Assembly (NCBI GenBank): GCA_002694685.1
Contig: NZMW01000004.1
Coordinates: 306,632 to 370,631 of the forward strand
DNA length: 64,000 nt
Reading direction: 5' to 3'
DNA from: Balneola sp.
GTDB taxonomy: Bacteria; Bacteroidota; Rhodothermia; Balneolales; Balneolaceae
A model generated the notes under the pieces. That model saw nothing but the letters and a program-made list of their open reading frames with translations, did not search any database and was not told the origin of the DNA. This document shows positions 5,270 through 49,416 of the stretch, in pieces. A program made the position numbers and the translations under genes. Position 1 is the stretch's first letter. Every line of letters begins with the position of its first letter.

Positions 5270-5600
5270 TAGGGAGCGAATCCAATGACCCTCTCTGTCT
5301 TTCCCCTTGAATAAGGGGAAAGGACTCTATGGTGAGATGGGATGTAGCTTAATCCGGCGCATTTTTTAGCAACACTTTTGCGAGGAGACTAGGTTGCTTG
5401 AATGTAGATTTGGGATAGCTAACGACGAAGCAATCTAGTTAAATATGGAAACCAAGCCGAACAACACCAGCGCCCTAATCCTGAGATTGCCACGCAGTGT
5501 ATTCATTTCACTCATTGTACTGCTCGATGGTGGATGCCTTTGCGAGATGCCCTGCCATAAAGCCAAAAACATCTGTCTTGATTTTCGCTTTGGAATGGTT
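5270..5600. repeat. dispersed repeat island 1 (three families)
   Basis: Contains the AAGGGGAAAG palindrome (5299-5322), one TTTGCGAGGAG/GACGAAGCAATC element, and the GAGATTGCCACGCAGTG-type block that recurs near 11425 and 44215. The order of parts resembles the island at 11126-11530. It ends just upstream of the candidate operator of the TetR gene. Confidence 0.75.
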
Positions 5601-6251: not shown

Positions 6252-8747
6252 ATGGAAGCAATAATGGAATTATTTGGATTTTTTAGTGAGGTCCCACTTT
6301 GGGCATCGATAGGGTCAGCATTTTTATTGATGCTGATATTAGGATATACAGGAGCTCCGTTGTGGTTATGGGCTGTAGCAGGTTATGTAGGTTTAGCCGG
6401 ATTGAATGCGCCTGCTTGGGCTTATATCACTTATACAGCTTTGGTATTGGTTTTCAATATAAAACCGATTCGAAGAGTTGTGTTGAGTGGTCCGATCATG
6501 AAATTGCTGGATGCACTGAATTTCCTTCCCAAAATATCACAGACAGAACAAACAGCTATTGAAGCTGGTAATGTTTGGGTTGAAGGAGAACTGTTTTCAG
6601 GAAAGCCAGATTTTAAGAAAATTTTGGACCAGGATTACCCTGAGTTGGATAAAGAAGAACAGGCTTTTCTTGACGGACCGGTGGAAGCGCTTTGCGGCAT
6701 GGTCACCGATTGGGATGTGATGGTTCGAAAAGGATTTACGGAAGAAGTATGGGAGTTCATGCGCAAAGAGAAGTTCTTTGGACTGATTGTTCCCAAGAAG
6801 TATGGCGGACTTGAATTCTCTGCCACTGCTCATAGTGCTATTGTAGCAAAGCTGGCCTCAAGGTGTGGGCCATTAGCCACCACGGTAATGGTACCTAACT
6901 CGTTAGGCCCTGCAGAATTGTTACTTCATTATGGAACTGAAGATCAAAAAGATCACTACTTACCAAGACTTGCAAGCGGAGAAGAAATGCCGTGCTTTGG
7001 CCTGACTGAAGCAAATGCAGGATCAGATGCAGGAAGCATGAGATCTGAAGGTGTAGTTTTTAAAGGGGATGATGGAGAGTTATACCTCAAAATGAATTTC
7101 GAAAAACGCTATATCACACTGGCCGCTATTTCTACGGTAATTGGCTTAGCGTTCAACCTTAAAGATCCCGATCACCTAATTGGGGATGAAGAAAATCGTG
7201 GTATAACCTGTGCACTTATTCCTTCAGATACAGATGGAGTCACTTTAGGAAGACGCCATGATCCTCTTGGAATTCCGTTCTACAACTGCCCAATTGATGG
7301 AAAAGATGTGATTGTACCAATTGACGCCATCATTGGTGGCAAAGAAGGAGCCGGAAATGGCTGGAGAATGCTGATGGAGTCACTGGCAGTAGGACGTGGA
7401 ATCTCATTACCGGCGCAAAGTGTGGGTGGATCTAAAATGGCAACTCGCGCAATCGGTGCTTATACAGCGATCCGTAAACAATTTGGATTGAACATCGGGA
7501 AATTCGAAGGTATCGAAGAACCCATGGCTCGAATCGGTGGGTATACGTACTTAATGGAAGCCGCTCGAAGATATACTACCGGTGGACTAGATAGTGGGCA
7601 AAAACCTGCCGTTGTAACAGCTATCGCAAAATATAATTTCACTGAGTTAGGTCGTGAAATTGTGACCGATGCAATGGATATTGTAGGCGGTGCAGGAATT
7701 TCCCGAGGTCCCCGAAATATCTTTGCAAGCAGCTATACTGCGATGCCAATCGCCATTACTGTTGAGGGAGCTAACATACTGACTAGAACACTCATGATCT
7801 TCGGTCAGGGTGCAATTCGTTGCCATCCCTACGCATACAATGAAATAGATGCACTGATGAACAAAGATGTGAAACAGTTCGATGATAACTTCTGGAAGCA
7901 TATTGGTCACGTTGCCAAGAATAAATCAAGAGCTTTCTTATTAAGCTTAACAAGAGGCCGATTAGCCTCATCACCGGTAAGCGGACCTTCAGCTAAGTAT
8001 TTTAGAAAACTAGCCTGGACATCAGCATCCTTTGCTTTCTTCTCAGATATCGCATTGGGATCATATGGTGGAGCTCTCAAAATGAAAGAGAAAATAGCCG
8101 GTCGCTATGCCGATATTTTAAGCTATATGTATTTAGCTTCTGGAACACTCAAACGATTTGAAGCGGAAGGAAGACGAGAAGCGGACCGTCCATATTTTGA
8201 ATGGGCTATGGAATATAGCTTCTGGAAAATTCAGCAAGCCTTTGAAGGGATCCTGCGAGAAATTCAGGTACCCGGATTAAGCTGGGTATTTAGATTAGCC
8301 GGAGTTTGGGGGAGATTGAATCCAATTGGAACCTATCCCTCAGATAAACTCGGTCATAAGGTTGCTCAAGCTATGCAAACTCGCGGAGAAGACCGGGATC
8401 ATATGACAGATGGAATTTACCTTCCGGAAGATAAAGAGTCTGCTGTCGGCCGATACGAACATACCATGAAGTTGGTTGAAGAAGCCTGGCCGGTATTCAA
8501 GAAGCTCTATAAAGCCATTAAGGCAAAAGAGCTGCCTAAAGAACCCTATTTAGAAATCGCAGATCTTGCAGTTGAGAAAGGAGTACTTAACAAAGAAGAA
8601 GGCGAGTTAGTCAAAAAAACCGAAAAAGCTCGAAACGACGCTATTCAAGTAGATGAATTCACGCTCGATGAGTATGATAACGAAACACCGACCAAACCTT
8701 ATGGCGATGGCAAGAAACCGGAAGAAGCTCCGCAGGCGATGGTTTGA
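6252..8747 (+). CDS. fadE: FadE-type acyl-CoA dehydrogenase
   Basis: This 831-residue enzyme catalyses the first oxidation of fatty acid beta-oxidation, acyl-CoA to trans-2-enoyl-CoA with FAD. It follows E. coli FadE (814 residues) throughout. There are two N-terminal membrane segments (about 13-33 and 37-68), then ISQTEQTAIEAGNVWVEGELF, EEQAFLDGPVEALC and GGLEFSA. The FAD/substrate block ITVEGANILTRTLMIFGQGA lies near residue 505, and a long C-terminal extension ends in KPEEAPQAMV. A Shine-Dalgarno-like GAGG precedes the ATG. It forms an operon with the TetR gene. Its last 249 bases exist as a decayed second copy at 10821-11069. Confidence 0.94.
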   Translation: MEAIMELFGFFSEVPLWASIGSAFLLMLILGYTGAPLWLWAVAGYVGLAGLNAPAWAYITYTALVLVFNIKPIRRVVLSGPIMKLLDALNFLPKISQTEQTAIEAGNVWVEGELFSGKPDFKKILDQDYPELDKEEQAFLDGPVEALCGMVTDWDVMVRKGFTEEVWEFMRKEKFFGLIVPKKYGGLEFSATAHSAIVAKLASRCGPLATTVMVPNSLGPAELLLHYGTEDQKDHYLPRLASGEEMPCFGLTEANAGSDAGSMRSEGVVFKGDDGELYLKMNFEKRYITLAAISTVIGLAFNLKDPDHLIGDEENRGITCALIPSDTDGVTLGRRHDPLGIPFYNCPIDGKDVIVPIDAIIGGKEGAGNGWRMLMESLAVGRGISLPAQSVGGSKMATRAIGAYTAIRKQFGLNIGKFEGIEEPMARIGGYTYLMEAARRYTTGGLDSGQKPAVVTAIAKYNFTELGREIVTDAMDIVGGAGISRGPRNIFASSYTAMPIAITVEGANILTRTLMIFGQGAIRCHPYAYNEIDALMNKDVKQFDDNFWKHIGHVAKNKSRAFLLSLTRGRLASSPVSGPSAKYFRKLAWTSASFAFFSDIALGSYGGALKMKEKIAGRYADILSYMYLASGTLKRFEAEGRREADRPYFEWAMEYSFWKIQQAFEGILREIQVPGLSWVFRLAGVWGRLNPIGTYPSDKLGHKVAQAMQTRGEDRDHMTDGIYLPEDKESAVGRYEHTMKLVEEAWPVFKKLYKAIKAKELPKEPYLEIADLAVEKGVLNKEEGELVKKTEKARNDAIQVDEFTLDEYDNETPTKPYGDGKKPEEAPQAMV

Positions 8748-8770
8748 GTTTTAAACCTGTCTATAATTTA

Positions 8771-10820: not shown

Positions 10821-11069
10821 AAAAAGCTCTATAAAGCTATTAAAGCAAAAGAGCTGCTCAAAGGACCCTATTTAGAAATTGCAGATCTTGCAGTCGAGAA
10901 AGGTATACTTACCAAAGAAGAAGGTGAGTTAGTCAAAAAAACCAAAAAAGCTCGAAACGACGCTATTCAAGTAGATGAATTCACGCTCGGTGAGTATGAT
11001 AACGAAACACCGACCAAGCCTTATGGTGATGGGTAGAAACCGGAAGAGGCACCGAAGGCGATGGTTTGA
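10821..11069 (+). pseudogene. decayed duplicate of the fadE 3' end
   Basis: This stretch repeats the last ~249 bases of fadE (8499-8747) with only scattered changes, including the stop codon context ATGGTTTGAG. In the shared frame it reads KLYKAIKAKELLKGPYLEIA..., GELVKKTKKARNDAIQ, FTLGEYDNETPTKPYGDG. An in-frame TAG replaces the Lys codon before PEEAPKAMV. Upstream of 10821 the match is lost, so only about 80 codons survive and there is no start. The Wzi-like gene lies between the two copies. It is either the tail of a former tandem paralogue or a local duplication. Confidence 0.88.
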
Positions 11070-11843
11070 GATAGGTTTAAGGGGTAAGGAGTTAGGTTTG
11101 ATTAATACTGCATAGTTTTAAAAAATCCGCTTTTGCGAGGAGAGTACATTGCTGAACACAGGATTGGGATGGCTGACGACGCGGCATTCTCGATGAATCA
11201 ACTTGGGATATTTAAGAACGCCAACTTGCCCTGAAACACAGACCCCTTTCTGTCTTTCCCCTTCAACAAGGGGAAAGGACTCCTTGATTAATTACCTGCG
11301 CCCATAAAAGCGCCGTCTTTGCGAGGAGAGTACACTACTGAACGCAGGATTGGGTTGGATAACGACGAAGCAATCTCCAAGAATCGGTTTGGGATATTGA
11401 ACAAGGTTCGTGCCATTATACCGAGACTGCCGCGCAATGTATTCGTTTCACTCATTGCATTGTTCGCAGATGGATACCTTTGCGAGTAGGCAAGTAAGGG
11501 TAGGGTGGTTAACAACGAACAATCTCATAATTAAAAGCCAGTCATCGCGGAAATATATTATCCGCGATCTGCCTTGTGGACATCCCAAGCTGATTAAGGT
11601 GATCCCGCATCTCCGTATTCACTTCGTTCGGGATGACATGTTGCAATTATTAATACCTAATGCCACAGAGCGGCAATGCCTTTCGGTATATAAACTACGG
11701 CTCCAAGAAAGGTCTCTTTCTTAACTAACCGTTATACTCGAGTCTCAAAACTAAAATCTCTTATCTCACATCTAGCCAACAATTACCTCTTTATATAGAA
11801 GGTCAAACTTCGTATTATAGTTGCTTAACAAAATTTTGAAAAA
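11070..11843. repeat. dispersed repeat island 2
   Basis: No gene is supported. The stretch holds a TTTGCGAGGAG ... GACGCGGCATTCTC element (about 11128-11195), the CTTTCCCCTT/AAGGGGAAAG palindrome (11254-11277), a second TTTGCGAGGAG ... AACGACGAAGCAATCTCC element (11319-11379), a GAGACTGCCGCGCAATG block (11420-11480) leading into another TTTGCGAG element, and a different family at 11541-11637. The last ~100 bases before the Wzz-type gene are AT-rich and should contain its promoter. Confidence 0.8.
11541..11637. repeat. type II palindromic repeat (GTCATC...GATGAC ends)
   Basis: The element starts GTCATCGCGGA and ends TTCGGGATGAC. Inside, TCGCGGA (11545-11551) pairs with TCCGCGA (11561-11567) and CCCGCATCTCCG lies near the right end. 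Related, more degraded copies occur at about 14230-14357, 44365-44402 and 46850-46965. This is a family distinct from the TTTGCGAGG repeats. Confidence 0.65.
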
Positions 11844-13086: not shown

Positions 13087-13120
13087 ACACAAGCGAAGCC
13101 CTGAACGGCTTCGCTTGTGT
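13087..13120 (+). terminator. 14-bp perfect hairpin after the Wzz-type gene
   Basis: ACACAAGCGAAGCC and GGCTTCGCTTGTGT pair without mismatch around the 6-base loop CTGAAC, 28 bases after the stop. A T-rich stretch (GGTTTTTAATT) comes only 15 bases later, so termination is likely but not textbook. The right arm and following sequence recur at about 15824-15838, where the left arm is missing. Confidence 0.6.
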
Positions 13121-13157
13121 ACTGGAAGACTGTTGGTTTTTAATTATGCAGTCTTCC

Positions 13158-13830
13158 AATTAAAAGCCCGTCTTTGCGAGGAGCTCTTGTTGTTGAATGC
13201 AGGGTTAGGATGGATAACGACGAAGCAATCTCCATGGAATAGCAACTAAGCAGAATAACGTCCATCTGGCCATTCCAAACAGAACCCAATCCCTGTCCCT
13301 TGCCCTCCGGCACATCGATAAAACAATAAAACCATTACTACCGCCGCAGGGTAAGGGAACGCTTTGGTGAGTTGATGGGTGGTTTATACTTCATAATTTG
13401 AAAAAGGCCGTCTTTGCGAGGAGACGTGTTGTTGAATACAGGGTTGGGATCGATAAGGACGAAGCATTCTCCCTGGAATAGTAACTAAGCAGAACAACGT
13501 CCATCTGGCCATTCCAAACAAAACCCAATCCCAATCCCTGTCCCTTGCCCTCCGGCCCATCGATAAAACAATAAAACCTTCACTACCGCCACAGGGTAAG
13601 GGAACGCTTTGGTGAGATGATAGGTGGTTTATACTTCATAGTTTTAAAAAGGCCGTCTTTGCGAGGAAGTTGGATTGCAGAATGCAGGGTTGGGGTGAAT
13701 AACGACGAAGCAATCTCCATGAATCGAATTAGGATATTGAACAACGCACCTTCTCCCGCTATACAAACCCCTTTCTGTATTTCCCTTTCAACAAGGGGAA
13801 AGGACTCCTTAGTAATTTAGTTACCTGTAA
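13158..13830. repeat. tandem array A, ~240-bp units
   Basis: TTTGCGAGGA occurs at 13173, 13413 and 13658, spacings of 240 and 245 bases. Each unit has TTGAATGCAGGGTTGGGATG-like and GACGAAGCAATCTCC sequence, then a long body (AACTAAGCAG, CGTCCATCTGGCCATT, TTGCCCTCCGGC, GGGTAAGGGAACGCTTTGG). The third unit changes after the GACGAAGCAATCTCC core and ends in the AAGGGGAAAG palindrome family. Short open frames inside follow repeat sequence and are not genes. Confidence 0.9.
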
Positions 13831-14582: not shown

Positions 14583-14611
14583 GCTTGTAAAGAAATTTAC
14601 AAGCTCTTTTT
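14583..14611 (+). terminator. plus-strand terminator facing the minus-strand gene
   Basis: Perfect 9-bp arms GCTTGTAAA and TTTACAAGC with a GAAA loop are followed by TCTTTTT. The T-tract is on the plus strand, although no plus-strand gene lies in the preceding 1.5 kb. It overlaps the stop codon of the convergent gene. It would stop transcripts leaking out of the repeat island. Confidence 0.6.
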
Positions 14612-15020
14612 ATATACCACCGTTTTCTTCTTCAGTTACCGGATCTTCCGAAAATGCTTCGGGATCGTGGGTAACAGGTCGAATATTGCGGTTACGGATG
14701 TTGCTTTTTCGGGTTCCGCCTACCATTTCATACTCTATGGAATCTCTTCCATAAAGCGTAATGATACCGGAAAAAACCCGTTCGTTAGCGTCATCCAGTT
14801 GCTTTTCCAACTTACGTACTACGCTACGCTGATTATCCACGTCAGAAAGCATCGCGTTATAACGATTTAGCTGCTCCTGAGCGGTTTGTACCAGGGTTTG
14901 GTAGCTGTTGGTTGAAAATCCTGCTCCAAAATCGAGATTTTCATCGATATTTTGCAGGGCATTGAGTCGGAATTCAGCGGTCTCTAAGCTACGCGACCGC
15001 TTTTTCTTACGTCTAGCCAT
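14610..15020 (-). CDS. hypothetical protein, 136 residues
   Basis: No family is recognised. The N-terminus is very basic (MARRKKKRSRSLE). A coiled-coil-prone middle follows (LVQTAQEQLNRYNAMLSDV, VVRKLEKQLDDANERVF, residues about 43-82) and the tail is acidic (PEAFSEDPVTEEENGGI). GIITLYGRDSIEYEMVGGTRKS resembles a conserved patch in small proteins of unknown function in Bacteroidota. No membrane segment or signal is present. A strong terminator follows it and it stands alone between two repeat arrays that are copies of each other. Confidence 0.75.
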   Translation of the reverse strand: MARRKKKRSRSLETAEFRLNALQNIDENLDFGAGFSTNSYQTLVQTAQEQLNRYNAMLSDVDNQRSVVRKLEKQLDDANERVFSGIITLYGRDSIEYEMVGGTRKSNIRNRNIRPVTHDPEAFSEDPVTEEENGGI

Positions 15021-15650: not shown

Positions 15651-15811
15651 ATATACACTTTATTTTCAATTTATAATGAAAAAAATATTACTATTAACAT
15701 TTTTTAGTGTATTTGAGCTAATATTCACAATTAAAGCTTATGTTTTATTTGTGACAAGTTGATGTCACCTGTGCGTGATATGTGTAGGCTTGGGTATATA
15801 GCAAAAGAAAA

Positions 15812-16440
15812 GTGGAGCCCTTAACGGCTTCGCTTGTGTACTGGAAAGTGGTTGGTTTTTAATTATGCAGTCTTTCCAATTAAAAGCCCGTCTTTGCGAG
15901 GAGCTCGTGTTGTTGAATGCAGGATTAGGATGGATAACGACGAAGCAATCTCCCTGGAATAGTAACTAAGCAGAACAACGTCCATCTGTCATTCCAAACA
16001 AAACCCAATTTCTGTCCCTTGCCCTCCGGCACATCGATAAAACAATAAAACCTTCACTACCGCCGCAGGGTAAGGGAACGCTTTGGTGAGTTGATAGGTG
16101 GTTTATGCTTCATAGTTTTTAAAAAGCCGTCTTTGCGAGGAAGTTGGATTGCAGAATGCAGGGTTGGGATGGATAACGACGAAGCAATCTCCCTGGAATA
16201 GTAACTAAGCAGAACAACGTCCATCTGGCCATTTCAAACAGAACCCAATCCCTGTCCCTTGCCCTCCGGCACATCGTTAAAACAATAAAACCTTCACTAC
16301 TGCCGCAGGGTAAGGGAACGCTTTGGGGAGTTGATAGGTGGTTTATACTTCATAGTTTTAAAAAGGCCGTCTTTGCGAGGAAGTTGGGTTGTTGAATGCA
16401 GGGTTGGGATGAATAACGACGAAGCAATCTCCAAGAATAA
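15812..16440. repeat. tandem array B, ~240-bp units (copy of array A)
   Basis: TTTGCGAGGA occurs at 15893, 16132 and 16372, spacings 239 and 240. The unit bodies match array A closely. Even the 60 bases before the first unit are shared (AACGGCTTCGCTTGTGTACTGG, here split as AACGGCTTCGC then TTGTGTACTGG), so the duplicated block starts at the hairpin of the Wzz-type gene. As in A, the third unit changes after its GACGAAGCAATCTCC core. Confidence 0.9.
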
Positions 16441-16668
16441 GTTTAGGATCTTCAACAGTGCTTACAAAAGAATGGATTTGCGAATGATCGATAGATCGAG
16501 TGACCGATTTACGAAGTATACCCTAATTAAACCCCGCAACCCATTCACATTCATAATTTCCAATCCAAAATTTCGAATGCCTATTGATCGCGTAAAATAT
16601 CCTCCGTATCATTGAGTAAAATTATTACTCGTTAAACCGCAACAAAGTTGCGTAATGTTAAATGCTGA

Positions 16669-44045: not shown

Positions 44046-44735
44046 AAAAGGTGTAAGGTATTAGTGGTAAGGTTTTGGGTTTTTCTACGCTTTAAATATC
44101 CGTTAAATTCCTTTTCTACTCTACTAAAAGCCTGCATTGCTGAATATTGGTCGGGATAAACAACGACGCAGCAACCTCCCTGAATTGAATTAGGATGTTG
44201 AGCAACGTCTCGTTACCCCGAGACTGCCACGCAATGTATTTGTTTTACTCATTGTATTGCTCGCAGATGGATACCTTTGCGAGGAGTTTGCGTTACTGAA
44301 TATTGGTAGGGGATGAACAACGACGAAGCAATCTCCCTTTTATGACAACTGATATAAACAACGACACCGGTTCATCCGGATCTCGCATTCACTCGGGGAT
44401 GACAAATAGTTGAGTAGAGACGACTTTCTTCCAGTAAACAAGAGAAGGGGTTCAGCCTTTCAACCCTCAAGGTTGGTTGAATGATTATTTCTTTTATAAG
44501 ATAATGAACGTGGAATAACTCCAAGAGCTGATAATGGGACAAGATAGGGTGAGAGGTAGTGTCAAGAATATGTAGCAATTTGGTATTTTGAGCTATATCT
44601 ATCTCAAAGATAAAAGAAGTTAAAATCAAAATTAGAGAATGTGACGATATTAAAACCCAAAAAACTTATTATCGGCCGTTTTAAGTACCACTCACATTAT
44701 CAACTTTAGTATAAGTTTGAAAGTCATAAAACTTC
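44046..44735. repeat. dispersed repeat island 3
   Basis: No gene is seen. The stretch has a GACGCAGCAACCTCC-type element (44130-44185), a GAGACTGCCACGCAATG block (44219-44275), a TTTGCGAGGAG ... AACGACGAAGCAATCTCC element (44276-44336) and a type II fragment (GGATCTCGCATTCACTCGGGGATGAC, split as GGATCTCGCATTC and ACTCGGGGATGAC, 44378-44402). A GGGTTCAGCCTTTCAACCCTC / GGTTGGTTGAA palindrome-like stretch follows (44449-44481). The remaining ~200 bases are AT-rich and lead into the ugd promoter. Confidence 0.75.
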
Positions 44736-44743: not shown

Positions 44744-44775
44744 TGGCCTTATTATAAATCAGAAAAATATTGAAC

Positions 44776-45948
44776 ATGAAGATTGCTGTTGCCGGAACCG
44801 GATATGTTGGCCTTTCACTTGCTGTATTGTTATCACAAAATCATGAAGTGGTAGCCCTTGATATACTCGAAGAAAAAGTTAATCTGATCAATAATGGTAT
44901 ATCGCCTATTACCGATCGGGATATTGAAAAATTTCTTAAGGAAGAGAGTCTGCAACTTAAAGCTACACTTGATAAAGAGGAGGCTTATAAAGGTGCCGAG
45001 TATGTGATTATCGCCACTCCCACAGACTATGATCCGGAAACCAATGAATTCAATACCAGATCTGTAGAAGCAGTTATTCGGGATGTGAATAAGATCAACC
45101 CTGATGCTACTATGGTTATCAAATCAACTATTCCGGTGGGTTATGTGAAAGAAATTAAAGAGAAATTTGGGATTGATAACCTGATATTTTCGCCAGAATT
45201 TCTCAGAGAGGGGAAAGCTCTGCATGATAATTTATATCCATCCCGAATAGTAGTGGGAGAACAGTCAGAAAGAGCCAGGGTTTTTGCCAATTTATTAATT
45301 GAGGGTGCAAAGGAGAATGCTGATAACATCCCTGTTCTTTTTACCGATAACACCGAGGCTGAGGCTATTAAGCTGTTTTCAAATACCTATCTGGCTATGA
45401 GGGTTGCTTATTTCAATGAGCTTGATTCTTATTGCGAATCACACAATATGAGTTCAAAGCAGGTGATCGAAGGGGTAGGGCTTGACCCAAGAATAGGAGA
45501 TCATTACAATAATCCATCTTTCGGATATGGAGGTTATTGTTTACCTAAAGATACTAAGCAGCTTTTAGCAAACTTTCATGACGTACCTAATAACTTAATT
45601 AGGGCTATAGTGGATGCTAACTCTACCCGAAAGGATTTTATAGCCCGCCAAATTTGGAAGAATGACCCTAAAATAGTTGGGGTTTACAGACTGGTTATGA
45701 AACAGGGGTCTGACAATTTCAGACAAAGTGCGATTCAGGGAATCATGAAGCGTATAAAGGCGAAAGGAATTGAAGTTGTGGTTTATGAACCCTACTTGGA
45801 ACAGGAAGAATTTTATCATTCTCGGGTTATTAAAGATCTGGATGAGTTTAAGGAGATTTCAGAAGTAATTATTGCCAACCGGATGGTAGAAGAGATCCGG
45901 GATGTTAAGGACAAGGTGTACACTCGGGATTTGTTTGGAACAGACTGA
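44776..45948 (+). CDS. ugd: UDP-glucose 6-dehydrogenase
   Basis: Ugd oxidises UDP-glucose to UDP-glucuronate with two NAD+. About 390 residues, like E. coli Ugd (388), with [72 protein letters not shown], and the catalytic Cys in [15 protein letters not shown]. An upstream TTG at 44770 is in frame, but ATG 44776 gives the normal start MKIAVAG. It has its own promoter and lies between two repeat islands, apart from the main operon. It supplies UDP-GlcA, and through the SDR at 17340 perhaps UDP-GalA. Confidence 0.95.
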
Positions 45949-46028
45949 TGAATATTATGAATGTTGAACCCTGAACATTCAACATTGAATGGTGAAGTTT
46001 TTGGTTTAGGAGTTTTAAAAAGTCAACA
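45949..46028. other. short spacer with inverted repeats of AACATTCAACATT type
   Basis: The stretch after ugd contains GAATGTTGAACCCTGAACATTC (45958-45979), an imperfect palindrome, directly followed by AACATTGAATGGTGAAG. Similar wording occurs inside the coding linker at 34530-34569 and in other spacers. It may serve as the 3' structure of the ugd transcript. Confidence 0.5.
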
Positions 46029-46740
46029 TTTGCGAGGAGAGTAAGTTGTCGAATGCAGGATTGGGATGAATAACGACGTGGCAATCTCGACACCATGGCT
46101 ACCAAGTATAACAACGAAGCTTTTGAGAAAGAGAGGGTGAATTAGTGAGATTGCTTCGGCTGGTAAGTTGGTAATTTGATTGTAGGATTGGCCTGCCTCG
46201 CAAAGGGATGTTTCACAAAAGCCCGCCTTTGCGAGGAGCCTGTATTGTTGAAAGTAGGTTTGGATTACTGACGAAATGGCAATCTCAACGCCATGGCTAC
46301 CAAGTAATAACAACGATACTTTGGAGAATGAGAGAGTGTATTAGTGAGATTGCGTCGGCTGGTAAGTTGGTTATTTGATGGTAAGCCTGGTGTGCCTCGC
46401 AAAGGGATGTTTCACAAAAGCCCGCCTTTGCGAGGAGCCTGTATTATTGAATGTAGGGTTGGAATTGCTAACGACGCGGCAATCTCGATGCCATGGCTAT
46501 CAAGTATAAGAACAAGGCTTTTGGGAATGAGAGCGTGAATTAGTGAGATTACGTCGGCTGGTAAGTTGATAATTTGATGGTAGGCTTGGTGTGCCTCGCA
46601 AAGGGATGTTTCAAAAAGCCCGTCTTTGCGAGGAGCCTGTATTGTTGAATGCAGGATTGGGATGAATAACGACGCGGCAATCTCGACGCCAGGCCTCTAA
46701 GTATAACAAAGATACTTTGAACCATGATTTAACTGATTAA
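46029..46740. repeat. tandem array C, ~199-bp units with nested inverted repeats
   Basis: TTTGCGAGGAG occurs at 46029, 46228, 46427 and 46625 (spacing 199, 199, 198), giving three full units and a partial fourth. Each unit begins CCTTTGCGAGG and ends CCTCGCAAAGG (perfect 11-bp inverted ends in units 2 and 3). Further in, GACGCGGCAATCTC is mirrored by GAGATTGCGTC about 60 bases later. So one unit is two copies of the TTTGCGAGG...GCAATCTC element facing each other, a REPIN-like design. Short open frames here follow repeat sequence and are not genes. Confidence 0.92.
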
Positions 46741-46971
46741 AGGATTAACAGGATTGATTGGTAGTAATCAAGAAATTCAAATAATCCTATAAATCAAGGT
46801 TCAAAAAGAAGGTGAAGAAGTCAGTTTCTTTAACTCCTTTATCGCAGTCAAAGATCGTCTTTAGCTATCTCCCTGCCGATCAGTGACCTTTTTTTTTAAA
46901 AAAACTTCTAACATAGGATAAGGAGATCCCGCATCTTCGCATTCACTTGGTACTGAATGACTTGGTGGCTA
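46741..46971. other. spacer with degraded type II repeat
   Basis: After array C come ~100 AT-rich bases, then a degraded type II repeat (about 46850-46965) with GGAGATCCCGCATCTTCGCATTCACTTGG, seen as GGAGATCCCGCATC then TTCGCATTCACTTGG. A run of TTTTTTTTTAAAAAAAAC lies at 46892-46910. It lies at the 3' side of the minus-strand exporter and could end its transcript. Confidence 0.55.
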
Positions 46972-49416
46972 CTAATTCCTTCGAATTTGGAAGATGGTAT
47001 TTGTTACTATTGCAGCCAAAGAAACAATAGTCGATAATACTGTAATACGTTCTGCAGTGCTTAGCTTTTGCTTCTCTTCTTTTGGAGGAATAATTAAAAC
47101 GGAGCCAGGTTTCACTTTAGGATAAGATTTAAAGAAAAGGAACTTCTTGGTTCTGTCCACTTCACCATTAGCATAAACTATATATCCTTTCTTTGTATTA
47201 GCTTGTTCCGTAAAGCCACCAGCTGCACTTACATACTTACGAAAAGACTTACGATCTTCATATCGGGCATTAATTGGGTAGAGTACTTCACCTCGAATTT
47301 GTACCGTCTGTAGCCTTTTGGGGATGTTTATCACATCCCCGGGTTGTAATAGTAAGTCATATTCCGAATTAGGCGCGTTTATTGCTTCTTTAAGCTGAAT
47401 TCCAACTTGGGACAGTGAGTTTGTTTCCTGAGTAGTTACCGAATCTTCAAGATTGATATCTAAGTCTTCGAGATCTTCCTCGTAGTTTCTGGTTAATGAA
47501 GCACCTTCTATATAAGCAAAGTCAGTAGGGCCACCACTATTCTCTACAAGGTCGCTTAGCCTAAAGTCGCGTGTACTTATTGCGTATTCACCGGGGTACA
47601 TGACTTCACCTTTAATCTGAACGGTTTTTTGAACTTCATAAGAAGGAGATTTTCGAACAAAAACCTGATCAAATGGATGCAGCTCTATCTCTTCTAATTC
47701 TTCAGAATATTCAAGCCCATTTTCGATATTTACAGTAATTATTTCTGCAATTCTATTATTCATCTCCCTTGACTTTGTGTCAGGTACCCGACGGGCAATT
47801 TCGATATTGTGAGGGGCTGCTTCTTCTTTAAAGCCATTAGCCTGATAAATCAGGTCTTTAAGTGAACTATTTTCAACAAACTTATACGTTCCGGGATTAA
47901 GTACAGACCCACTGATCTTAATGGTTCTGAATTCGCGTAAATCAAAAATAGATGAAATCTGCACGACATCATCTTTGATAAGCTCAACTGATGCTGCTGA
48001 AGTGTCTGCCATTAGTTTATTTAAATTGACCGGAATAGCTTCAATGCTGTAATCTTTCTGTGTACGGAAAATAACCGCCCGTTCCATGAAGGCATCACCC
48101 ATTAGTCCTTCAGCATTTTCTATGAGTTGAGAAAGGGTGGGGTTTTCTTCAAGCTGATATTCACCGGGTCTGAAAACAGGTCCTTTTATTTCCACTTTAT
48201 TTGCAAAGCGATCTAAAATCCGGCCAACAGTAATGATATCTCCTGATTGTAAAACAGTATTCCCATTATCTGGAAAGGGAATATCAACAATCTTTCTTTC
48301 GGTATCTGTTTTACGTTCAAGTTTTATTCTTTTTTTGTAAGCAAATTGATTGAAACCTCCGGCATACTCTAACAAATCATTGAAAGTCTCACCTTCAATT
48401 GTCTCAAACTTGCCAATATTTTTCGTTTCGCCTTTTAGGGTAATTCTATTTACATATGGATCTATCTTTATGATATCCTGATCTTTCAAAATAATATTAT
48501 CCGCAAGATTACCGGATATAAGAAAATCGTAAAGATCTACGGTTCTAAATACTTTCCCATCTCTAAGAACTTTAATAGCCCTATAGGTACCATCATTATT
48601 AGGGCCTCCGGAAGCATACAAGGCATTAAAAACCGAAGAAAGAGAACTTAAGGAATAAGTGCCAGGGGCTGCTACTTCACCTACTATACTCACTTTTATG
48701 CTTCTTACATCTCCTAAAGTAATTTGCATAAAGGTAGTTTTATTATTTCCTGATAAACCGGAATAGATATTTGAAAGCTTAGCTAAAAGTCTTTCCCTTG
48801 CTTCTTCTATTGTAAGTCCATTTAAAAAGACTGGTCCAATATTACTTATTTGAATAGAACCTTCCGGACTAATCATTAGTTGATAGGTCGTTTCTGTTGC
48901 ACCCCAAATATCAATAAAAAGCTCATCCCCTGGTCCTAGCGTATAATTTTTTGGGGTAGGGATGTTTAGAGAGGGTTCAAAAGTAATTCTTGGATTTGAA
49001 AAAATGTCTGAACCAAAAATGTTGGAAGTATCTTTTTCTGCAGAATCAAGAAGTACGTCCATAGTATCAGGCTGGAAACCTGAAGATCTTAATGAAGAGT
49101 CACCTGGCTTTTCAACTCTCATACGACCTTGCCTTGAAGCACCCGTTCCAATGCTTTCAGATGTAGAAGATCGTACTTGGTTTATTCTGGATCTGAGTTT
49201 ACTTACTTCTGCCGGATTCATCCCTCGCGCCAGAGCAAGAGTTTCGACTTCAGAAATCGAGAGCCCACGATCCTGCATTCGCTCATAAAGCTGAGAGATT
49301 TGCTGATCGCTTAAGTCATTTACACGAATGTTTTCAAAGTCGATACCGAAGTCTTGTGCCTGTATCGATACGGATATAAGAACAAACAGAATAAAACTCG
49401 CTAGACGCTTAATCAT
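46972..49416 (-). CDS. Wza-like polysaccharide export protein with multiple SLBB domains
   Basis: The 814-residue protein has a signal peptide (1-20, ending SIQAQ) and an N-terminal helical segment. The Poly_export domain follows (NYTLGPGDELFIDIWG near 158-173, SPEGSIQISNIGPVFLNGLTIEEA, split as SPEGSIQISNIGPVF and LNGLTIEEA). Then come about six SLBB repeats, each with the V-x-G-x-V-x-x-P-G-x-Y pattern (VSIVGEVAAPGTYSL, VEIKGPVFRPGEYQL, IKISGSVLNPGTYKF, VQIKGEVMYPGEYAI and others). A hydrophobic C-terminal helix with a basic end (TIFQIRRN) closes it. It should form the outer-membrane/periplasmic export channel for the polysaccharide. It is more than twice the length of E. coli Wza, as usual in Bacteroidota. 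Divergent from the WlbA-like gene. Confidence 0.92.
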   Translation of the reverse strand: MIKRLASFILFVLISVSIQAQDFGIDFENIRVNDLSDQQISQLYERMQDRGLSISEVETLALARGMNPAEVSKLRSRINQVRSSTSESIGTGASRQGRMRVEKPGDSSLRSSGFQPDTMDVLLDSAEKDTSNIFGSDIFSNPRITFEPSLNIPTPKNYTLGPGDELFIDIWGATETTYQLMISPEGSIQISNIGPVFLNGLTIEEARERLLAKLSNIYSGLSGNNKTTFMQITLGDVRSIKVSIVGEVAAPGTYSLSSLSSVFNALYASGGPNNDGTYRAIKVLRDGKVFRTVDLYDFLISGNLADNIILKDQDIIKIDPYVNRITLKGETKNIGKFETIEGETFNDLLEYAGGFNQFAYKKRIKLERKTDTERKIVDIPFPDNGNTVLQSGDIITVGRILDRFANKVEIKGPVFRPGEYQLEENPTLSQLIENAEGLMGDAFMERAVIFRTQKDYSIEAIPVNLNKLMADTSAASVELIKDDVVQISSIFDLREFRTIKISGSVLNPGTYKFVENSSLKDLIYQANGFKEEAAPHNIEIARRVPDTKSREMNNRIAEIITVNIENGLEYSEELEEIELHPFDQVFVRKSPSYEVQKTVQIKGEVMYPGEYAISTRDFRLSDLVENSGGPTDFAYIEGASLTRNYEEDLEDLDINLEDSVTTQETNSLSQVGIQLKEAINAPNSEYDLLLQPGDVINIPKRLQTVQIRGEVLYPINARYEDRKSFRKYVSAAGGFTEQANTKKGYIVYANGEVDRTKKFLFFKSYPKVKPGSVLIIPPKEEKQKLSTAERITVLSTIVSLAAIVTNTIFQIRRN

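Follow-up and report, generated by a model that had tools for sequence, protein, structure and literature searches.

A tandem array of long-loop CGTC-type REP units in Balneola sp. and small GIY-YIG nucleases as their candidate mobilisers

Within a 64-kb stretch of Balneola sp. DNA (hereafter the window), three and a half 199-bp units, each containing nested inverted repeats, occupy positions 46022-46719 between ugd and the gene for a polysaccharide export protein. The array and its neighbours are laid out as follows.

44770-45948, plus strand: ugd (UDP-sugar dehydrogenase), upstream neighbour of the array
46022-46211, plus strand: unit 1; head TTTGCGAGG at 46029, inner GCAATCTC at 46081-46088 and GAGATTGC at 46147-46154, tail CCTCGCAAAGG at 46196-46206
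46221-46410, plus strand: unit 2; head CCTTTGCGAGG at 46226-46236, tail CCTCGCAAAGG at 46395-46405, inner pair at 46273-46286 and 46346-46359
46420-46609, plus strand: unit 3; head at 46425-46435, tail at 46594-46604, inner pair at 46473-46486 and 46545-46558
46621-46719, plus strand: half unit 4; CGTC tag at 46621-46624, TTTGCGAGGAG, and GACGCGGCAATCTC at 46671-46684, no tail
46972-49416, minus strand: polysaccharide export protein gene, convergent neighbour of the array

An earlier, sequence-only reading of this DNA had described four sites spaced 199, 199 and 198 bases apart between ugd and the exporter gene. We recovered the same spacings for TTTGCGAGGAG, with starts at 46029, 46228, 46427 and 46625, and the placement holds, as ugd ends at 45948 and the exporter gene spans 46972-49416 on the minus strand. 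TRF called a repeat of period 199 at 46046-46719 (3.4 copies, 84% matches). The facing copies reported for units 2 and 3 were confirmed at the unit ends, where CCTTTGCGAGG at the head and CCTCGCAAAGG at the tail form an 11-bp perfect terminal inverted repeat; the inner motif had to be corrected, to GACGAAATGGCAATCTC in unit 2 and GACGCGGCAATCTC in unit 3, with mirror copies GAGATTGCGTC and GAGATTACGTC. The inner inverted repeat of the array units is GCAATCTC / GAGATTGC. Unit 1 has the tail of units 2 and 3 and the head CATTTGCGAGG, and the fourth copy, which bears a genuine CGTC tag, amounts to half a unit. The units have diverged by ~16%, so the array is not fresh.

Three congeners (G023, G026 and G029) lack the array in their orthologous ugd-exporter interval, which is filled by other repeats, some of them from the same superfamily; the window array probably arose in this lineage, in this interval. 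The array gives way at 46720-46812 to an inverted repeat, TTGAACCATGATTT...AAATCAAGGTTCAA, that is conserved: the congeners L258 and L259 have it in their orthologous interval too, and it is perhaps a bidirectional terminator.

The motifs of the array are enriched across the window. With one mismatch allowed, TTTGCGAGGA has 19 matches (4.05 expected), and with two mismatches GACGNNGCAATCTC has 22 (2.6 expected); in neither case did any of 100 shuffles reach as high a count. Two more arrays and several single copies, all absent from the sequence-only reading, account for further members of the family.

5377-5546, plus strand: dispersed single unit
11132-11488, plus strand: two dispersed half units (copies at 11132 and 11318)
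13162-13721, plus strand: second window array, period 245; three CGTC-TTTGCGAGGA...GACGAAGCA(A/T)TCTC half units with unrelated spacer between them
15882-16432, plus strand: third window array, period 240; a 90.5% copy, flanks included, of 13091-13743
44135-44335, plus strand: dispersed half units upstream of ugd

The second and third arrays sit within a block of 650 bp, with three half units in each copy, that is duplicated at 90.5% identity 2.7 kb apart (13091-13743 and 15810-16457), and the two copies flank a small ORF of the polysaccharide locus (14610-15020, minus strand). A separate direct duplication of 250 bp (8499-8748 and 10821-11070, 91.6%) involves the acyl-CoA dehydrogenase gene at its end and an intergenic stretch downstream.

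In the 3.95-Mb genome, exact TTTGCGAGGAG occurs 15 times, 11 of them inside the window, a single polysaccharide region. The array unit recurs at C1:775691-776700 on the minus strand as three full units plus a weaker fourth head, and sister dimers with canonical ends (CGTCATCGCGAGGAG ... CTCGCAATGACG) are found elsewhere. The end GTCATYGCGAGG occurs 30 times, many copies forming facing pairs 127-146 bp apart. Being dispersed, as a second array and as sister dimers, the units are not a local duplication. Their dispersal bears out the earlier proposal of a REPIN-like family of inverted pairs; the outcome named as fatal to that proposal, a unit found only here with no inverted pairs elsewhere, is not what the whole genome contains.

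The units belong to a known class of repeat. Di Nocera et al. (2013, PMC3733652) described CGTC-tagged REPs, which include dRS3 of Neisseria and RPE-4/RPE-6 of Rickettsia, with stems of 8-9 bp starting AT and loops of 4-5 nt. They reported that these REPs "apparently lack a dedicated transposase", saw no association with transposase genes and found none of the REPs beside tyrosine transposases, and suggested either that the CGTC REPtrons have been lost or that the REPs are moved by transposases of many kinds. Our repeats share with this class, in some members, the CGTC end tag (half unit 4, the sister units and the two window arrays near 13 and 16 kb), and more generally palindromic arms (AT-YGC / GCR-AT), head-to-head dimers, dispersed intergenic copies and the lack of an adjoining Y1 transposase. 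They differ in having a loop of ~45 nt and a stem of 4-5 bp, which lie outside the published ranges and are why we name the array units a long-loop variant of CGTC-tagged REPs, in the tandem arrangement of whole dimers and in having a candidate dedicated enzyme. Units 1-3 have a weak tag (CGCC or none) and a T-T mismatch in the REP stem.

The stem is TTGC/GCAA in the window units and ATYGC/GCRAT in the sister units. The arms covary (ATTGC/GCAAT, ATCGC/GCGAT, ATTAC/GTAAT and ATTTC/GAAAT), 37 of 41 being complementary with four pair types, which indicates that arm pairing has been kept; we looked for covariation between the CGTC tag and the inner GACG and saw no signal. The suggestion that the units could fold as cruciforms or RNA held in part: a whole unit folds better than shuffles by a modest margin (RNA z -2.9, DNA z -2.2), whereas 60-nt half units do no better than shuffles (z ~0 or positive), so that a stable hairpin per half unit was rejected. 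A known RNA family was also rejected, as there was no Rfam match.

The second array revealed a possible partner gene. A 99-aa GIY-YIG nuclease gene (C1:776076-776372) lies between two ~200-bp units of the C1:775691-776700 array, which was found by sequence alone. This genome thus has a small GIY-YIG gene with copies of the array unit on both sides, and the locus is its closest putative autonomous relative. The genome contains nine small GIY-YIG genes. Seven of these, judged by eye, have CGTC-type repeats close by, and genes or gene groups have REP types of their own (TTGCGAG/GCAATCT, GTCATCCTGAACTTGTTTCAGGAT, GTCATTCCCGCG..GGGAAT and GTCATCCCGAACGAAG..GGGATCC, with a GTCATTCTGAG type that is less clear); the other two, a UPF0213-type gene and a broken frame, have no CGTC-type repeats close by.

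An AlphaFold2 model of the nuclease predicts a confident single domain (pLDDT 92), and the catalytic residues Y10, Y21, G23, R31, H35, E68 and N87 are invariant in a 20-sequence alignment (A1). Among solved structures UPF0213 BH0048 is nearest, followed by Slx1, and UPF0213 (PDB 1zg2, 1ywl) and Slx1 are nearest by both sequence profile and fold. Each also differs from the nuclease: the UPF0213 genes most closely related to the copy in the present genome (L284-L287) have no flanking repeats, and Slx1 is a eukaryotic nuclease that acts on branched DNA.

Using A1 as the query, we assembled 80 loci from a genome contig collection and 114 from Bacteroidota genomes, one genome per species, and scored bracketing as a repeat common to the 500-bp left and right flanks, with control positions ~3 kb away in the same loci. 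Shared flanking repeats were present at 52 of 79 GIY-YIG loci compared with 2 of 125 control positions (Fisher p = 8e-26), and at 93 of the 114 Bacteroidota loci. The 80 loci span 32 phylum-level groups, 21 of which have flank repeats. Within 100 bp of the gene the GTCAT/ATGAC tag reaches 11.2 and 9.7 per kb in the two sets, compared with 1.3-1.9 per kb beyond 500 bp (background 1.8), and a reversed control 5-mer was flat around the same genes. As REPs bracket GIY-YIG genes across many phyla, the small nuclease is, on this genomic evidence, the leading candidate for the enzyme behind their spread.

Many of the nuclease elements are minimal, comprising the gene and two inverted REPs. Tandem arrays of period 100-300 adjoin GIY-YIG genes at 13 of 80 and 26 of 114 loci, compared with 3 of 124 control windows; the constant-period tandem form, which had been called unusual, is thus a recurring state of this system. 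Matches in a plasmid collection lie in hosts that PMC3733652 names for CGTC REPs (among them S. meliloti, A. lipoferum and Neisseria), and no phage record encoded the nuclease at E 1e-12. In Neisseria gonorrhoeae (NZ_CP119140.1, L283), a small GIY-YIG gene lies inside a dense dRS3 repeat array.

We next compared REP type with nuclease lineage, using the five bases after GTC as the label of REP stem class. On the nuclease tree the label needs 22 changes, compared with 42.9 when shuffled (0 of 200 shuffles as low), and the nearest nuclease from another genome has the same label in 100 of 127 cases (45% by chance) and, outside the largest class, in 22 of 45; because close relatives inflate such counts, we take them as support for, and not proof of, the conclusion that REP type follows nuclease lineage. 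Among genomes in the family, those with a close nuclease have a median of 7 GTCATYGCGAGG ends and those without have 0 (p = 1e-8). The clearest exception is G023, with 37 ends and no close nuclease, and G014 and G041 have a close nuclease and zero ends. G023, which has no close GIY-YIG gene, also contains five tandem units of period ~183 (C2:672357-673239), a possible orphan array like that of the window.

Comparisons of single sites show presence and absence of the ends and the gene. Azospirillum lipoferum 4B has, between sufB and sufC, a block of the form REPIN-gene-REPIN; in A. ramasamyi, A. oryzae and strain B510 the two genes form a plain operon without REPs. The fnrL/response-regulator interval of Sphingobium plasmids occurs in three states: GTCACCCCGGG...gene...CCCGGGGTGAC in TomTYG46, TomMM7A and TomTYG73, a solo REP at the same place in TomTYG64 and TomTYG74, and no REP in TomTYG72 and TomTYG65. 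The solo REP of TomTYG64 (GTCACCCCGGGTCAAGCCCGGGGTGAC) is the exact product expected from deletion between the two ACCCCGGG octamers of the flanking REPs. Sinorhizobium arrays beside the nuclease gene differ by whole units of 216 and 224 bp; the pair CP090106 and M103 was rejected as an empty site, as both have the gene and differ in REP units only. Among the sites compared, no target-site duplication could be defined and no nucleotide-exact empty site was recovered.

From these data, we consider it probable (roughly 0.65) that the window array consists of non-autonomous mobile elements that lack the gene and have expanded in tandem, and whose autonomous form encodes a GIY-YIG nuclease. Each unit would consist of head-to-head CGTC-type REP ends, that is, the ends of the autonomous element minus its gene, and the autonomous form would be one ~100-aa GIY-YIG gene set either between a REP and an inverted REP or with whole units on both sides. 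By analogy with Slx1, the nuclease may recognise the REP end as a hairpin, a cruciform or a branched replication structure and would cut in or close to the tag; an attractive possibility is that it would act like Slx1 on a REP that is extruded or single-stranded. Host repair would then copy or move the element, and recombination or slippage between units, perhaps helped by breaks, could make an array grow or shrink. The window array itself is probably without a function of its own, except for possible effects on the 3' ends of the two convergent genes.

A different enzyme had been proposed at the outset, when the units were likened to REPINs and linked to RAYT transposases, with the remark, which our search of the 64-kb window upholds, that no RAYT is encoded there; neither a Y1 transposase nor a GIY-YIG gene was found in it. 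The array units do have the REPIN geometry of two inverted REPs around a spacer, and a genome-wide check for a Y1 partner returned five Y1_Tnp genes, but none has CGTC-type hairpins beside it or carries the units. Around the Y1_Tnp genes of the phylum the GTCAT tag forms no peak (flat at ~1.7/kb), and the failure of Di Nocera et al. (PMC3733652) to find CGTC REPs beside tyrosine transposases points the same way. Flanking repeats without GTCAT tags accompany 15 of 29 Y1 loci, which fits two parallel systems. The published REPIN/RAYT system (GTAG REPs with a Y1 tyrosine transposase; Bertels and Rainey 2011, PMC3116915) is similar in outline, with non-autonomous inverted REP pairs and an autonomous partner gene that has those REPs on both sides, but our units end in CGTC or CGCC or lack a tag (CGTC in sister units), a GTAG-type tag was not found, and the partner is a GIY-YIG nuclease of unrelated fold with no Y1 link. 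It is therefore very improbable that the array is a RAYT-mobilised REPIN.

The most serious remaining rival keeps the nuclease and changes its role. GIY-YIG enzymes include known homing nucleases, and the gene might be a homing-type selfish gene for which CGTC REPs are safe target sites, the REPs spreading otherwise and the array having no mobilising partner; or the nuclease could be a passenger gene at REPs. The genes often lie inside REP arrays, as in Neisseria, the genome of G023 is rich in ends without a close nuclease, and REP type would likewise track the nuclease tree if the target preference were fixed. Homing endonucleases such as I-TevI, free-standing or intron-borne, share the catalytic residues and a selfish mobility tied to the nuclease, whereas here we find a bare ~100-aa domain, short palindromic bracketing ends and many gene-less derivatives. 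Moreover, the ends travel with the gene, as in the A. lipoferum operon whose congeners are REP-free at that place, the Sphingobium solo REP fits a deletion between 8-bp repeats of flanking REPs and not an empty target, and many elements consist of the gene and two inverted REPs; we therefore regard homing as unlikely. That slippage or unequal crossing over duplicated the unit passively in tandem, leaving an inert array or just a 3'-end RNA structure between convergent genes, strikes us as quite improbable as the whole account: the age implied by unit divergence, the folding of whole units, the position between convergent genes and the whole-unit copy-number changes in Sinorhizobium all suit it, but it leaves the dispersed copies and the nuclease association unexplained. 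As the history of this one locus, it is compatible with mobilisation by a GIY-YIG-encoding element.

Beyond this locus, we think it rather likely that small GIY-YIG nucleases are dedicated mobilisers of CGTC REPs throughout bacteria, in minimal elements of CGTC REP, GIY-YIG gene and inverted REP with REPIN-like and tandem derivatives, parallel to RAYT/REPIN and using an unrelated enzyme, and that a second REP superfamily may be paired with at least one more GIY-YIG clade. Few bacterial repeats have a wider distribution than CGTC REPs and their relatives, and the 2013 classification did not settle their means of spreading (PMC3733652). Clade-specific pairing with a ~100-aa nuclease makes this spread directly testable with one protein and one short DNA substrate. 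If the proposal is true, REP mobility has had at least two origins that involve unrelated enzymes, and the very common annotation "GIY-YIG nuclease family protein" gains a function. We found no earlier report of a GIY-YIG/REP link in the open-access literature, to which our search was confined, and novelty is therefore provisional; a term search of the 2006 GIY-YIG phylogenomics paper gave no hits, and GIY-YIG goes unmentioned in the 2025 RepRanger paper, which only cites the CGTC paper.

A second clade of small GIY-YIG genes (L288-L293), with GSTxDL...GEGANHTKKR/GANYTKTR motifs, is flanked by a different palindromic superfamily, of the GGTGRCTGAG...CTCGAAGYCACC type or CCTCGATACTCAGCC..GGGGAC, and not by CGTC REPs. 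This suggests that the pairing of nuclease and REP is broader than CGTC REPs.
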